Assembly: GCA_021780195.1 (NCBI GenBank) | Contig: JAJXZE010000017.1 | Coordinates: forward strand, 1 to 38,321 | Direction: 5' to 3' | DNA: 38,321 nt | From: a bacterium | Lineage (GTDB): Bacteria; Patescibacteriota; Minisyncoccia; UBA6257; 2-01-FULL-56-20 | In this document: positions 5,583 through 9,731 of the stretch, in pieces | Layout of the letters: every line of letters begins with the position of its first letter | How positions within the stretch are numbered: position 1 is the stretch's first letter | Notes under the pieces: model-generated | What the model was told of the DNA's origin: nothing | What the model saw: only the letters and a program-made list of their open reading frames with translations | Database searches by the model: none | Position numbers and translations under genes: made by a program

Positions 5583-6266
5583 ATGGATCCCGAAAAACTC
5601 GAAAAGAAGCTGGGAATCGTTTTCAAGGACAAGGACCTCCTGACCGAGGCCTTGACGCACCGTTCGTACCTCAATGAATTCCCGCGGTGGCGCCTGCCGC
5701 ACAACGAACGGCTGGAATATCTTGGCGACGCCGTGCTCGAACTCCTGGTTTCCGAGGAGCTCTTCCGGAAGTTCCCGCAGTATCCGGAGGGCCAGCTCAC
5801 CGTGCTCCGCGCGGCGCTCGTGAATTACCAGATCCTCGCCAGGGTCGCGGAGGGGCTCGGCCTCGAACGCTACATTCTGATGTCGCGCGGCGAGAAGAAG
5901 GACACCGGCAAAGCGCGTGAAGTGATTCTTGCGAACGCGATCGAGGCGGTGATCGGCGCGATGTATCTCGACCAGGGATTCGAAAAGATGCGGCCGTTCG
6001 TCCGGAAGTTCGTGATGAGCAATCTGGACGAGGTGCTTACGACCAAGAGCTATCGCGACGCGAAAAGCGAACTCCAGGAGGCGGTGCAGGACAAGCTCCG
6101 CCTCACGCCGACGTACCGGATGCTTGAAGAATCTGGCCCCGCGCACAAGCGCGTGTTCCGCATGGGCGTGTACTTCGGCGAACGGCTCGTGGCGGACGGC
6201 GAAGGTACGTCGAAGCAGGAAGCGGAGGTCGCGGCCGCAAAGAACGCCCTCAAGAAGAAATTTTGA
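5583..6266 (+). CDS. rnc: Ribonuclease III
   Basis: LTHRSYLNE, NERLEYLGDAVLELLVSEELF, C-terminal dsRBD. Confidence 0.97.
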   Translation: MDPEKLEKKLGIVFKDKDLLTEALTHRSYLNEFPRWRLPHNERLEYLGDAVLELLVSEELFRKFPQYPEGQLTVLRAALVNYQILARVAEGLGLERYILMSRGEKKDTGKAREVILANAIEAVIGAMYLDQGFEKMRPFVRKFVMSNLDEVLTTKSYRDAKSELQEAVQDKLRLTPTYRMLEESGPAHKRVFRMGVYFGERLVADGEGTSKQEAEVAAAKNALKKKF

Positions 6267-8539
6267 TGGCGCACTTCCTGAAACGGCTGGAACTGAACGG
6301 ATTCAAGTCATTCGCGGGGAAAACCGTCCTTGAATTCCCTGCGGGGATCGTGGCGGTCGTGGGGCCGAACGGGTCGGGCAAGTCGAATATTGTGGACGCT
6401 CTGCGCTGGCTTCTTGGGGAGCGCGACGCCAAGAATCTCCGGGGCGGCAAGGTGGAAGACCTCATTTTTTCCGGTACGCAGAAGCGGACGCGGGCGGGCA
6501 TGGCTTCGGCAAGCCTGTATTTCGAGAACCGGCACAAGTTTTTTCCGGTGGATTTCGAGGAGGTGGTGATCACGCGGCAGGTTTCGCGCGGCGGCGACAG
6601 CAAGTATTTTTTGAACAAATCGGAGGTGCTCCTCCGTGACCTCGTTGATTTTTTCGCGAAGGCGCGCATGGGTTCGCGCGGCCTCATTATCATTGGCCAG
6701 GGCGACAGCGATCTTTTCATCCGTTCCACGCCCGCGGAACGCCGCGAGATGATCGAGGAGCTGCTGGGTCTCCGCGAATATCAGCTGAAGAAAGCGGATG
6801 CCGAGCGGCGGCTCCGGAACAGCGGCATCAATCTCGACAAGACGAAGGCGCTTATCGAGGAGATCCTTCCGCACCTCCGGTCGCTCAAGCGGCAGACGAA
6901 CCGGTGGGAGCGCCGCGGCGCGCTCGAAGAGGAGCTCCGCTCGCTTGAGGCGGGCTTTTTCGGGTTCCAGTTGCGCGAGCTTTCCGAAAAAGGCCGCGCC
7001 GCCTCTGCGCGCCTTGCCGCGCTCTCGGGGGAGTTTGACGCGCTTGAGGCGGAACGCCGCGCGGCCGAAGCGCGTCAGGCGAAAGTGGAAGCAAGCCAGC
7101 CGGAAGAGAAGCGGGAACTTGCCGCGGTGAAGCGGGAGATCCAGGAACTTCTTGAAAGGAAGAGCGCGCTTCAGAAGGACCTCGGCCGCCTGGAGGCGCA
7201 GATCGAACTTGCGGAATCGCGGCACGCTTCCGCGGTCTCGCCCGGGCCCGCGGACGGGATTCTTGAATCGATCGGGAATATCCGGGCGGAACTCCTGCGG
7301 GCGCTTGACGAGGAGGAGCTCGAGCTCCGCGCCACCGTGCAGAGCGTGCTCGAAGAAATCGATGAAATTTTGAGCGGTAGCGCGCGCCCGGCGGCGCCCT
7401 CCTCGCATCGAGGTCGGAACGATGCCGATGCCAGCGGGGCCGCCTCCGCCGGCGCCGAATTCCGTCCCCAACTCGAAAAGCTTGCGCGCGATTTGTCCGC
7501 GCTCGACCTTGCGGTCGCTTCACTCCGCGAACAAGAAAAAGCATTCGAAGCGGGCCAGGAGGCGTTCTACGCGGCTTTCAAAGCGGCGGTGGCCGGCGTG
7601 CAGGAAGCCAAGAACAAGATCGCCGCGTGGGAGCACCGGAACCGCGAAGCGACGCTTGACGGGGAACGGCTGGGACTCCGTCGCGATGAGCTTTTGCGTC
7701 AGATCGAGCAGGCCGGCCGGAATGCGGAGGACTTTACGGACGCCGATGTTCCCGCGGCGATACGCGAGGAAGATCTTACGGAGATGGAGCGACGTATTTT
7801 CCGCCTGCGGGGCGACCTGGCCGCGATCGGCGAGATCGATGAGGCGCTCATGAAGGAAGCGCGGGATACCGAGACGCGGTACGAGTTCCTCTCCAAGGAG
7901 TCAGAGGATCTTACGCGCGCGGTCGCTGACCTCACGGGCCTCATCGTCGAGCTTTCCGGCAAGATCGTAACCGAATTCGACAAGTCGCTTGCTCTGATCA
8001 ACGAGGAGTTCAACAAATTCTTTGGCCTCATGTTCGGCGGCGGTACGGCGAAGCTCCGTATCGAGAAGCCGCGCGCGCCGCGCCGGCTCGGGGAAGAGGC
8101 GGATGGCGAAACGGGAGAGGGGGCAACGGATGCCGAAGAGGAATCCGCCGAGGATTACGTTGCCGGCATTCCCGCGCGGGACGGCGGCATTTTGATCGAG
8201 GTCAAACTTCCGCGCAAAAAGATCACTTCACTTGAGATGCTTTCGGGAGGGGAGCGATCGCTCGTCGGTATCGCCGCGCTCTTTGCCATGGTCGCGGTGA
8301 GCCCGCCGCCGTTCCTCGTGCTCGATGAGATCGACGCGCCGCTCGACGAACGCAACGCGCGCCGCTTCGGCGAGATGCTCAAGGAATTCTCCAGGCACAC
8401 GCAGTTTGTGGTGGTCACGCATAACCGTGCGACCATGGAGGCCGCCGAGATCCTTTACGGCGTGACGCTCGGCGAGGACGGCAGTTCGAAGATCGTTTCG
8501 CTGAAGCTTGAACGCGAGGAAGCGCCGGCGGAAGCGTAG
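6266..8539 (+). CDS. smc: SMC-like chromosome segregation ATPase, short form without recognisable hinge
   Basis: Walker A GPNGSGKSNIVDALRWLLGE, QGDSDLFI Q-loop region, signature LSGGERSLVGIAALFA, Walker B FLVLDEIDAPLDE. Only about 757 aa. ATG overlaps the rnc TGA. Confidence 0.9.
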   Translation: MAHFLKRLELNGFKSFAGKTVLEFPAGIVAVVGPNGSGKSNIVDALRWLLGERDAKNLRGGKVEDLIFSGTQKRTRAGMASASLYFENRHKFFPVDFEEVVITRQVSRGGDSKYFLNKSEVLLRDLVDFFAKARMGSRGLIIIGQGDSDLFIRSTPAERREMIEELLGLREYQLKKADAERRLRNSGINLDKTKALIEEILPHLRSLKRQTNRWERRGALEEELRSLEAGFFGFQLRELSEKGRAASARLAALSGEFDALEAERRAAEARQAKVEASQPEEKRELAAVKREIQELLERKSALQKDLGRLEAQIELAESRHASAVSPGPADGILESIGNIRAELLRALDEEELELRATVQSVLEEIDEILSGSARPAAPSSHRGRNDADASGAASAGAEFRPQLEKLARDLSALDLAVASLREQEKAFEAGQEAFYAAFKAAVAGVQEAKNKIAAWEHRNREATLDGERLGLRRDELLRQIEQAGRNAEDFTDADVPAAIREEDLTEMERRIFRLRGDLAAIGEIDEALMKEARDTETRYEFLSKESEDLTRAVADLTGLIVELSGKIVTEFDKSLALINEEFNKFFGLMFGGGTAKLRIEKPRAPRRLGEEADGETGEGATDAEEESAEDYVAGIPARDGGILIEVKLPRKKITSLEMLSGGERSLVGIAALFAMVAVSPPPFLVLDEIDAPLDERNARRFGEMLKEFSRHTQFVVVTHNRATMEAAEILYGVTLGEDGSSKIVSLKLEREEAPAEA

Positions 8540-8568
8540 CGCGGCTTGAATCCGCGCCGTGCGGATGG

Positions 8569-8574
8569 TATCAT
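8569..8574 (+). promoter_or_regulatory. Putative extended -10 (TGGTATCAT) for the tRNA-like locus
   Basis: ATGGTATCAT resembles the GTGGTATAAT box of rnpB; no clear -35. Confidence 0.35.
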
Positions 8575-8592
8575 CGGAAAGTCTTTTTCAGG

Positions 8593-8622
8593 CGAGTCCT
8601 TTATGGGCCCATAGTAAAGTGG
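8593..8622 (+). repeat. Orphan 5' tRNA fragment, direct-repeat copy 1 (CGAGTCCTTTATGGGCCCATAGTAAAGTGG)
   Basis: 30-bp perfect copy of 8680-8709, covering the leader and 5' end of the complete tRNA. Confidence 0.9.
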
Positions 8623-8657
8623 CCCCTCGCCAGGGGCGAGGCGATTGCAGTTTGAAA

Positions 8658-8787
8658 AGCTTTCGATTTTATTTACTATCGAGTCCTTTATGGGCCCATA
8701 GTAAAGTGGTATTACGCCGCATTCGCATTGCGGAGGCGCGAGTCCGATTCTCGCTGGGTCCACATCAGGGTAAATAAAATCGAAAGC
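8658..8787. repeat. 18-bp perfect inverted repeat flanking the tRNA-Ala-like gene
   Basis: GCTTTCGATTTTATTTAC (about 8659-8676) and GTAAATAAAATCGAAAGC (about 8770-8787). Confidence 0.92.
8692..8762 (+). tRNA. tRNA-Ala-like (anticodon CGC)
   Basis: GGGCCCA/TGGGTCC acceptor with G3:U70, D-stem GTAA/TTAC, anticodon stem CCGCA/TGCGG with loop TTCGCAT, T-stem GCGAG/CTCGC. Atypical T-loop TCCGATT (C at position 55); variable loop 4 nt; followed by CA. Confidence 0.75.
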
Positions 8788-8791
8788 GTGT

Positions 8792-8839
8792 CCGCATCCG
8801 CATTGCGGAGGCGCGAGTCCGATTCTCGCTGGGTCCACA
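8792..8839 (+). repeat. Orphan 3' tRNA fragment (copy of 8717-8764)
   Basis: 48 bp with one mismatch (T33 to C) to the 3' part of the complete tRNA. Confidence 0.9.
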
Positions 8840-8845
8840 AATAAA

Positions 8846-8880
8846 AAAACTCCGCTGGATTGGTGTCTGTGCGGAGTTTT
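8846..8880 (+). terminator. Intrinsic terminator, possibly bidirectional
   Basis: AAAACTCCGC ... GCGGAGTTTT 10-bp stem. Confidence 0.8.
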
Positions 8881-8891
8881 GCTATAGGCGG

Positions 8892-9731
8892 TCAGCGTCG
8901 GAAAAGCGATTGATTTCCTGGGACGAGGCCAAGGAGGCGAATTGAGAAAACCTCGTAGTTTACAAGTCCAAGAATCGCACCTACCACCGCACCGACGAGT
9001 GCACTGCCGACAAAGTAACCGATGGCGCTACCGATGGCCGCATCCACGGCGCAGAGTAATCGCACCTCAGAATGAATGACTCGGAAAGACATTTTCAGGA
9101 ATCGGTAGAGAGCGTTCACGTTGTGTCTAAATTTCTGCTGATTTTCTTGGGAAAACCAGCAAGCAACCCTCTTTTGTATCGCGCGGGGTACGGTCCAGAA
9201 GAAGAACTTAGGCACCCTTAAGCCGTAAAAGCGAAATGGGTCGCAAAGATACATTCCTCCTAAAAACAGAACCTCTTCGCGGAGGGCATTAGCTTTTTGG
9301 CTGTTGCTCGCCCAGAATCCCACTATCAATCCCGCTATCAATCCCGCACAAAGCATACATTGCATCATCATCGCTACGCCAAGGAGGAGACTGGCGATAG
9401 TCTCATCCCCTTTGACAAGCGCTGCGGAAATAGCGAGGAATAAAATCAAGGACACTTCAGCTATTGCAATCGTGACAAGCAGGCCAATCATTTCCATCAC
9501 GAGTGCGTAACGGGCGCGCCACAATTCAAGGTTGGGGCGCCATGCGGTAGCCGCTGACCATGCTTGGGGAATTGCGGCTGCTACCGCCTTCCATTCGAAA
9601 GATAGATAACCAGTAGATCCACCCACGACCAGTCCTATCCACCAAAAGAATGGATGTAGCTGAAGGGCAGTCAGCGCTCCGACAAATGCGCCGAGAGCGC
9701 AGGAAAGCGAAATTTTAAAGCCCGTTTTCAT
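8892..9731 (-). CDS. Multi-pass membrane protein of unknown function
   Basis: 279 aa, several hydrophobic helices and glycine-zipper-like segments; GGAGG upstream of ATG (CGGAGGCCAACCAATATG). Confidence 0.75.
   Translation of the reverse strand: MKTGFKISLSCALGAFVGALTALQLHPFFWWIGLVVGGSTGYLSFEWKAVAAAIPQAWSAATAWRPNLELWRARYALVMEMIGLLVTIAIAEVSLILFLAISAALVKGDETIASLLLGVAMMMQCMLCAGLIAGLIVGFWASNSQKANALREEVLFLGGMYLCDPFRFYGLRVPKFFFWTVPRAIQKRVACWFSQENQQKFRHNVNALYRFLKMSFRVIHSEVRLLCAVDAAIGSAIGYFVGSALVGAVVGAILGLVNYEVFSIRLLGLVPGNQSLFRR

Follow-up and report, generated by a model that had tools for sequence, protein, structure and literature searches.

Why should a complete tRNA gene lie inside a broken second copy of the same gene? 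This question is raised by a locus in the DNA analyzed here (the window, 38,321 nt), which stems from a member of the Patescibacteriota with a genome of 0.70 Mb that is 98% complete. A complete tRNA-Ala(CGC) gene, flanked by the arms of an 18-bp inverted repeat, is enclosed there by two orphan halves of a second copy of the gene. This layout had been proposed in the original prediction, and it was confirmed to the base.

Organization of the Nested Locus

All parts of the nest are located on the plus strand, downstream of rnc and smc. The RNase III gene rnc (5583–6266, Pfam Ribonuclease_3 and dsrm) precedes smc (6263–8539, Pfam SMC_N, 1.4e-63), which lies directly upstream of the nest and marks a conserved site. 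The outer unit is preceded by a sigma-70-like promoter-like site (TTGAAT-17-TATCAT, 8546–8574, consensus scan only). It starts with a leader (8593–8604) identical in sequence to the leader of the inner tRNA (8680–8691), followed by an orphan 5' fragment comprising nt 1–18 of tRNA-Ala (8605–8622, 100% identity to the inner tRNA). The D-loop of this fragment is occupied by a GC-rich segment (8623–8641) that forms a hairpin (8625–8641), and GC palindromes are present at the equivalent position in the ORF-bearing relatives described below. A TTGC (8645–8648) that pairs with GTAA is possibly a leftover of the 3' strand of the outer D-stem; its counterpart at locus L002 of genome G005 is GTTAA/TTAAC, which is paired in the minimum free energy (MFE) fold.

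The inner part begins with a second sigma-70-like promoter-like site (TTGAAA-16-TACTAT, 8652–8679, consensus scan), the spacer of which is the 5' arm of the inverted repeat (8659–8676). Similar motifs occur at the equivalent position in L002 and in L003, a locus of genome G012. The complete tRNA-Ala(CGC) gene (8692–8763, or to 8762) and the perfectly pairing 3' arm (8770–8787) are followed by the orphan 3' fragment (8792–8839), which starts at nt 27 and is 98% identical to the inner tRNA. A hairpin with a subsequent T-run (about 8849–8880) is likely to be the terminator of the unit; a strict terminator scan missed it owing to the length of its loop. The duplication of tRNA sequence is visible as two direct repeats, one of 30 nt (8593–8622 and 8680–8709, 100% identical) and one of 48 nt (8717–8764 and 8792–8839, 98% identical). 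The acceptor strands of the orphan halves are complementary (8605–8611 with 8830–8836), as had been claimed. Downstream of the nest lies an ORF of 279 aa on the minus strand (8892–9731) without a Pfam match.

The nest is a single copy in its genome, and none of the other testable tRNA loci of the genome has arms or halves of this kind. Metagenome-type contigs with repeats invite the suspicion of an assembly artefact, which the original prediction had also raised, but nests of this kind are found again in assemblies that are independent of one another and have arms of another sequence, and the probability of an artefact is negligible.

The Inner tRNA Gene and the Orphan Halves

Only one tRNA was called at the nest by both ARAGORN and Rfam (RF00005), namely Ala(CGC) with 64.2 bits, in agreement with the predicted gene, while the orphan 3' part reaches 19.3 bits in the tRNA model and remains under the cut-off. 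The inner gene scores as a tRNA and has intact stems and U33, as expected of a functional tRNA-Ala(CGC). A search of the genome for a further tRNA-Ala(CGC) gene returned none besides the inner one, which is accompanied by genes for tRNA-Ala(TGC) and tRNA-Ala(GGC).

Two nucleotides had been singled out as odd in the original prediction, and they fared differently. C55 in the T-loop of the inner tRNA is not unusual, as 19 of the 87 complete tRNA-Ala(CGC) genes of the order have a T-loop that starts with TCCGA. C33 of the orphan 3' half is really odd: all 86 readable complete tRNA-Ala(CGC) genes of the order have TT at positions 32–33, and C33 is absent from them. We infer that the inner tRNA is the working gene and that the outer halves, with their C33, are relics.

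In the window and in L002 the outer shell has retained intact acceptor, T-, and anticodon stems, which could mean that splicing or base pairing unites its halves to give a second functional tRNA, the intron of which would contain the inner tRNA. However, nt 19–21 and most of the D-loop are replaced by the hairpin and the outer half has C33, so that the halves cannot rebuild a mature tRNA, also not by splicing at a BHB motif. In addition, only tRNA matches scored above the gathering threshold of Rfam, group I or group II introns were not matched in 8540–8900 at E<=0.1, and the shells decay freely in relatives. A split or intron-containing tRNA is thus very improbable.

The smc Site in Related Genomes

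Among 38 genomes of the family a tRNA-Ala(CGC) gene often adjoins the 3' end of smc, in either orientation. A plain single tRNA, i.e., an empty site, is found beside smc in L006, L010, and L014, while decayed pieces of the shell are present at this site in L005 and probably also in L004. Nests of the window type occur in two related genera, in L002 and, triple nested, in L003. The window, L002, and L003 share the breakpoints and the order of the parts (nt 1–18, GC hairpin, insert, complete tRNA, nt 27–73), and the gap between the 5' fragment and the inner tRNA is 69, 69, and 68 nt long, respectively. In L003 two shells surround one tRNA; the outermost shell is truncated, and the middle shell is derived from a different tRNA-Ala variant with another T-stem and acceptor pair.

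The non-tRNA segments of the window, L005, L002, and both shells of L003 align better with one another than shuffled sequences do. The 3' segment is alignable between the window and L005 and between L002 and L005 (p = 0.0005, the floor of the test), and the 5' segment between the window and L002 (p = 0.003), whereby nothing but base composition is preserved in the shuffles and the significance may be inflated by promoter motifs that the segments have in common. The alignable non-tRNA parts suggest that the shell was probably inherited by common descent and later decayed in some lineages.

A scan across GTDB with a strict pattern matched only the two relatives that were already known. A relaxed pattern, applied to 244 genomes of the order and 384 genomes of the class, yielded three further real nests (L157, L160, and L161), a nest-like locus (L158) that is ambiguous on its 3' side, and two loci, L156 and L159, with plain tandem pairs. 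Independent truncated tandem tRNAs were rejected as an explanation of nests, as the two halves of a nest always complement each other at a single loop.

The Inverted Repeat and the Concentric Fold

The arms of the inverted repeat vary in sequence between species, and they pair perfectly within each of them. The perfect arms comprise 18 bp in the window, 20 bp in L002, and 16 bp in the middle shell of L003, and all 54 pairs are Watson-Crick pairs, with zero G-U. The pairing score of the window is 18, well beyond a null distribution from mismatched flanks, which reached at least 16 in 0.09% of 1101 pairings. Between the window and L002 8 of the 18 pairs differ, and every change is compensated, whereby only three intact units are available and the arms were aligned from the tRNA-proximal end and counted by hand, because MAFFT misaligns the arms of the three units. 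A transposon or MITE was rejected: the arms differ between the window, L002, and L003, there are no shared ends, and the nest is a single copy in its genome.

It had been proposed that an RNA of roughly 300 nt could fold concentrically, and this was borne out: a region of 288 nt adopts such a fold with z = -5.3 versus dinucleotide shuffles, and the three intact units have the concentric MFE fold in common. The compensated changes in the arms can reflect selection on the RNA level. Together with the fold and with the position of rnc two genes upstream of the nest, they speak for a selected RNA of about 235–300 nt, in which the inner tRNA would be enclosed by the 18-bp stem and by the acceptor stem of the outer shell. 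Such an RNA might be a regulator or a processing scaffold, the long stem of which is cut by RNase III. However, transcripts from the inner promoter-like site would be devoid of the 5' arm, and the outermost shell of L003 contains one mismatch, one G-U pair, and a truncated 3' half. Template switching has been described to create and to maintain or repair perfect stems (PMC8794818), and the complete lack of G-U pairs fits such palindrome copying on the DNA level better than compensation on the RNA level. Relatives with a plain tRNA or decayed flanks, which in the original prediction would have spoken against a structured unit, do exist, also among close relatives at the very same site, although every difference between the arms of the window and of L002 is compensated. 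The fold is real and recurrent, but many relatives have lost the outer shell or retain it in decayed form, and a selected concentric RNA is rather unlikely.

GIY-YIG Reading Frames Within Broken tRNA Genes

Short GIY-YIG ORFs are present in 182 of the 244 genomes of the order. In L095, L113, and L145 such an ORF (GIY-YIG by Pfam, 1e-13 to 1e-19) is located between a 5' tRNA part and a complete tRNA, and in L095 and L113 a 3' tRNA part is present as well. A sample of 70 ORFs, consisting of the 30 best-per-genome and 40 lower-ranked ones, was examined. A complete tRNA gene follows on the same strand within 100 nt in 37 of them, compared to a chance expectation of well under 1% (a rough value, based on about 45 tRNAs in 700 kb). 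A significant 5' fragment of the same tRNA is found upstream in 24 of the 37 cases, usually with a D-loop that is broken by a GC palindrome, and a second tRNA block is present in 17, most of which end at nt 22–27. The isotype of the orphan 5' fragment is identical to that of the inner tRNA in 24/24 cases, and its own isotype fits best in all. The encoded putative nucleases are short and consist of a single domain, and their closest relative in the PDB is UPF0213.

The tRNA-Val locus L210, which comprises nt 1–18, a hairpin, nt 18–25, the ORF, and a complete tRNA, corresponds to the left side of the window nest plus an ORF. Further ORF-bearing examples affect tRNA-Gln (L245), tRNA-Ser (L189), and tRNA-Leu (L215), and other insertions, in genes for tRNA-Ala, tRNA-Ile, and tRNA-Gly, use the anticodon loop. 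In L199 the inner and the outer tRNA-Tyr differ in the acceptor stem; therefore, the cargo can be foreign. Some observations speak against counting the nest among these elements. An arm score of at least 8 was observed for 11 of the 37 ORF-bearing elements versus 7% in the null, and arms as long and perfect as those of the window are atypical for ORF-bearing insertions in the D-loop. No GIY-YIG match was obtained within the window; the genome has one, inside a frame of 472 aa, and no close match to the small GIY-YIG ORF was found in the three genomes with D-loop nests in tRNA-Ala.

These results also bear on the possibility that no element is involved at all, and that a single replication accident, i.e., template switching and two local duplications, copied the leader with nt 1–18 and nt 27–73 with the trailer and made the arms. 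The 12-nt leader is indeed duplicated exactly along with the 5' half, template switching is known to generate and preserve perfect stems, as mentioned above, and the inner and outer halves share window-specific changes in the T-stem. The near-identity of the inner and outer halves in the window also fits a plain local duplication. Halves within one genome are more alike than their counterparts in other genomes, as gene conversion would give. However, the breakpoints, the D-loop hairpin, and the spacing are alike in three genera, which independent accidents are unlikely to produce, and ORF-bearing counterparts with the same breakpoints exist in many isotypes. Furthermore, the outer and inner tRNAs of L003 and L199 are clearly different variants, and therefore the cargo need not be copied from the target. 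A mere accident is rather unlikely.

A Proposed Origin of the Nest

The original prediction had offered a structured RNA, an atypically processed tRNA, or the scar of the insertion of a tRNA-bearing cassette. The last reading is best supported, by the empty sites, the decayed shells, the same-isotype cassettes, and the ORF-bearing counterparts. The nest of the window is probably an ORF-less member of a class of elements that invade tRNA genes and bring a replacement tRNA with them. An ancestral single tRNA gene beside smc would have been opened at the boundary between D-arm and anticodon arm (nt 26). A complete tRNA of identical isotype, equipped with a promoter-like site of its own, would have been brought along or duplicated by the insert, which would have spared the cell the loss of its tRNA. 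Of the opened gene, nt 1–18 with the GC hairpin in the D-loop and nt 27–73 would have stayed behind as a broken shell, and presumably only the inner tRNA is used. Autonomous relatives would be those in which the 5' fragment and the replacement tRNA are separated by an ORF for a small GIY-YIG endonuclease. The enzyme is presumed to cut intact copies of the respective tRNA gene, whereupon repair would copy the filled allele, as with T4 SegB and the fungal mobile ORFs described below, and the class would move by homing. With tRNA sequence at both of its ends, the unit could also insert into its own inner tRNA, which would have led to the triple nest of G012. Gene conversion and template switching may keep the halves alike and the arms perfectly paired.

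The insertion place is defined in the window, L002, and L003 (nt 18 and nt 26–27) and is accompanied by the empty alleles L006, L010, and L014, and the complete tRNA-Ala(CGC) inside is a replacement for the broken target. A GIY-YIG homing element encodes its endonuclease, which is the case for the architectural relatives L113, L095, and L145, and not for the window; the nest is thus classified as ORF-less and related, and not itself as a homing element. The window form presumably lost, or never carried, the ORF. As the window is devoid of the ORF and the genome of a small nuclease, its copy is either a dead relic or dependent on a nuclease or recombination in trans.

A somewhat different scenario, which is possible albeit doubtful, is that the ORF-less nest is a protein-free selfish tRNA that spreads and nests in itself by gene conversion. 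Breaks would be made in trans, and because the nest starts and ends in tRNA sequence, a break in an intact copy would be repaired from the nest; the stem would be renewed by template switching or kept for processing.

If the proposed invasion by an element with a replacement tRNA is right, invasion of tRNA genes by very small elements is routine in these ultra-small bacteria, and a single-copy tRNA is broken and replaced in one step. This would explain the short GIY-YIG ORFs in the genomes of the order and why many of them lie directly before tRNAs, and it would open a route for the exchange of tRNA genes between lineages. The nests would also be a Russian-doll gene structure that occurs in nature, and they would provide a clear system in which to test homing that is not tied to introns. 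For annotation it would be a warning that an orphan tRNA half and a short GIY-YIG ORF are to be regarded as parts of one unit. The nest of the window is a modest, ORF-less example, and the class behind it is more interesting.

Relation to Known Systems

Integrative elements that use the 3' end of tRNA genes as attachment site insert into a tRNA gene and restore an intact tRNA. Unlike these, the nest has neither an integrase nor direct-repeat boundaries at the 3' end, and the new tRNA lies between the two halves of the old one.

The GIY-YIG nuclease SegB of phage T4, which cleaves inside tRNA genes and promotes that they are inherited or amplified (PMC2988022, PMC13096335), is likewise tied to tRNA genes. 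However, it is free-standing between phage tRNA genes, whereas the ORFs described here are located inside a split tRNA and travel with a complete tRNA of the same isotype, and the window copy has no ORF. Mobile ORFs of fungal mitochondria (Allomyces atp6; Glomus atp6, atp9, cox2, and nad3) bring a copy of the displaced gene part, and the native end is left as a relic (PMC3630166). In both cases an endonuclease element in a gene supplies a replacement, but in fungi mitochondrial protein genes and only their 3' ends are affected, in contrast to a whole tRNA gene in bacteria. Insertion sequences in rRNA genes of the Candidate Phyla Radiation (CPR), i.e., in the same bacterial group, are not introns, and some of them encode GIY-YIG proteins (PMC11270868). 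That study concerns rRNA genes and describes neither a replacement rRNA copy nor tRNA genes. Group I introns are insertions in bacterial tRNA genes that may carry homing endonucleases (PMC3984707); the nest differs from them in that it has no match to an intron ribozyme and that rescue is by a second tRNA and not by splicing. No description of a nested tRNA, or of GIY-YIG with a tRNA, in CPR/Patescibacteria was found in the open-access literature searched, which is not a proof of absence. The class would belong to a known kind, endonuclease-associated insertion with target replacement, and is apparently undescribed for tRNA genes in the literature covered.

Further Nests and Hairpins

ORF-less nests are also present in genes for tRNA-Gly (L108) and tRNA-Ile (L157 and L160). 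In L108 (G223) a tRNA-Gly(TCC) lies inside a split tRNA-Gly with a 15-bp arm pair. A tRNA-Ile(GAT) is enclosed by a split tRNA-Ile in both L160 (G343), with a split in the anticodon loop, and L157 (G155), with a split in the D-loop and a hairpin. The short arms of two ORF-bearing tRNA-Gln nests, L211 and L225, covary (GTCCAAA/TTTGGAC versus ATCCAAA/TTTGGAT).

The D-arms of broken 5' fragments of different isotypes (L215, L224, L231, L245, and L161) contain a near-identical palindrome, CCTGCCTGCGCAGGCAGG or CCTGCCTGCCGGCAGGCAGG, which may be read as a short mobile hairpin that marks dead tRNA copies. The anticodon-loop nests L020, L067, L081, L108, and L122 have a common upstream block (TCCCGCC..GGCGGGATTGCGATTT..AAATCGGGAACATTCGCAC) and a common leader, AAACTTGTGGGCC, which is complementary to the tRNA 3' end and trailer and could therefore pair with the 3' strand of the acceptor. 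A palindromic element of about 100 nt (CCCCGTTAGAAGTAG...CTACTTCTAACGGGG) is located directly at the 3' end of tRNA-Ala(CGC) in L090 and L112, with GTCCAC on both sides; its CCCCGTTA ends recur in the anticodon-loop nests L120 and L161. In L065, L082, L087, L122, and L161 complete tRNAs are trailed by a separate insert of about 150–200 nt that contains a motif like GGGAAGGGGTCGGGAAAC...; an inverted T-arm forms its beginning, and after it the tRNA 3' end is present for a second time.
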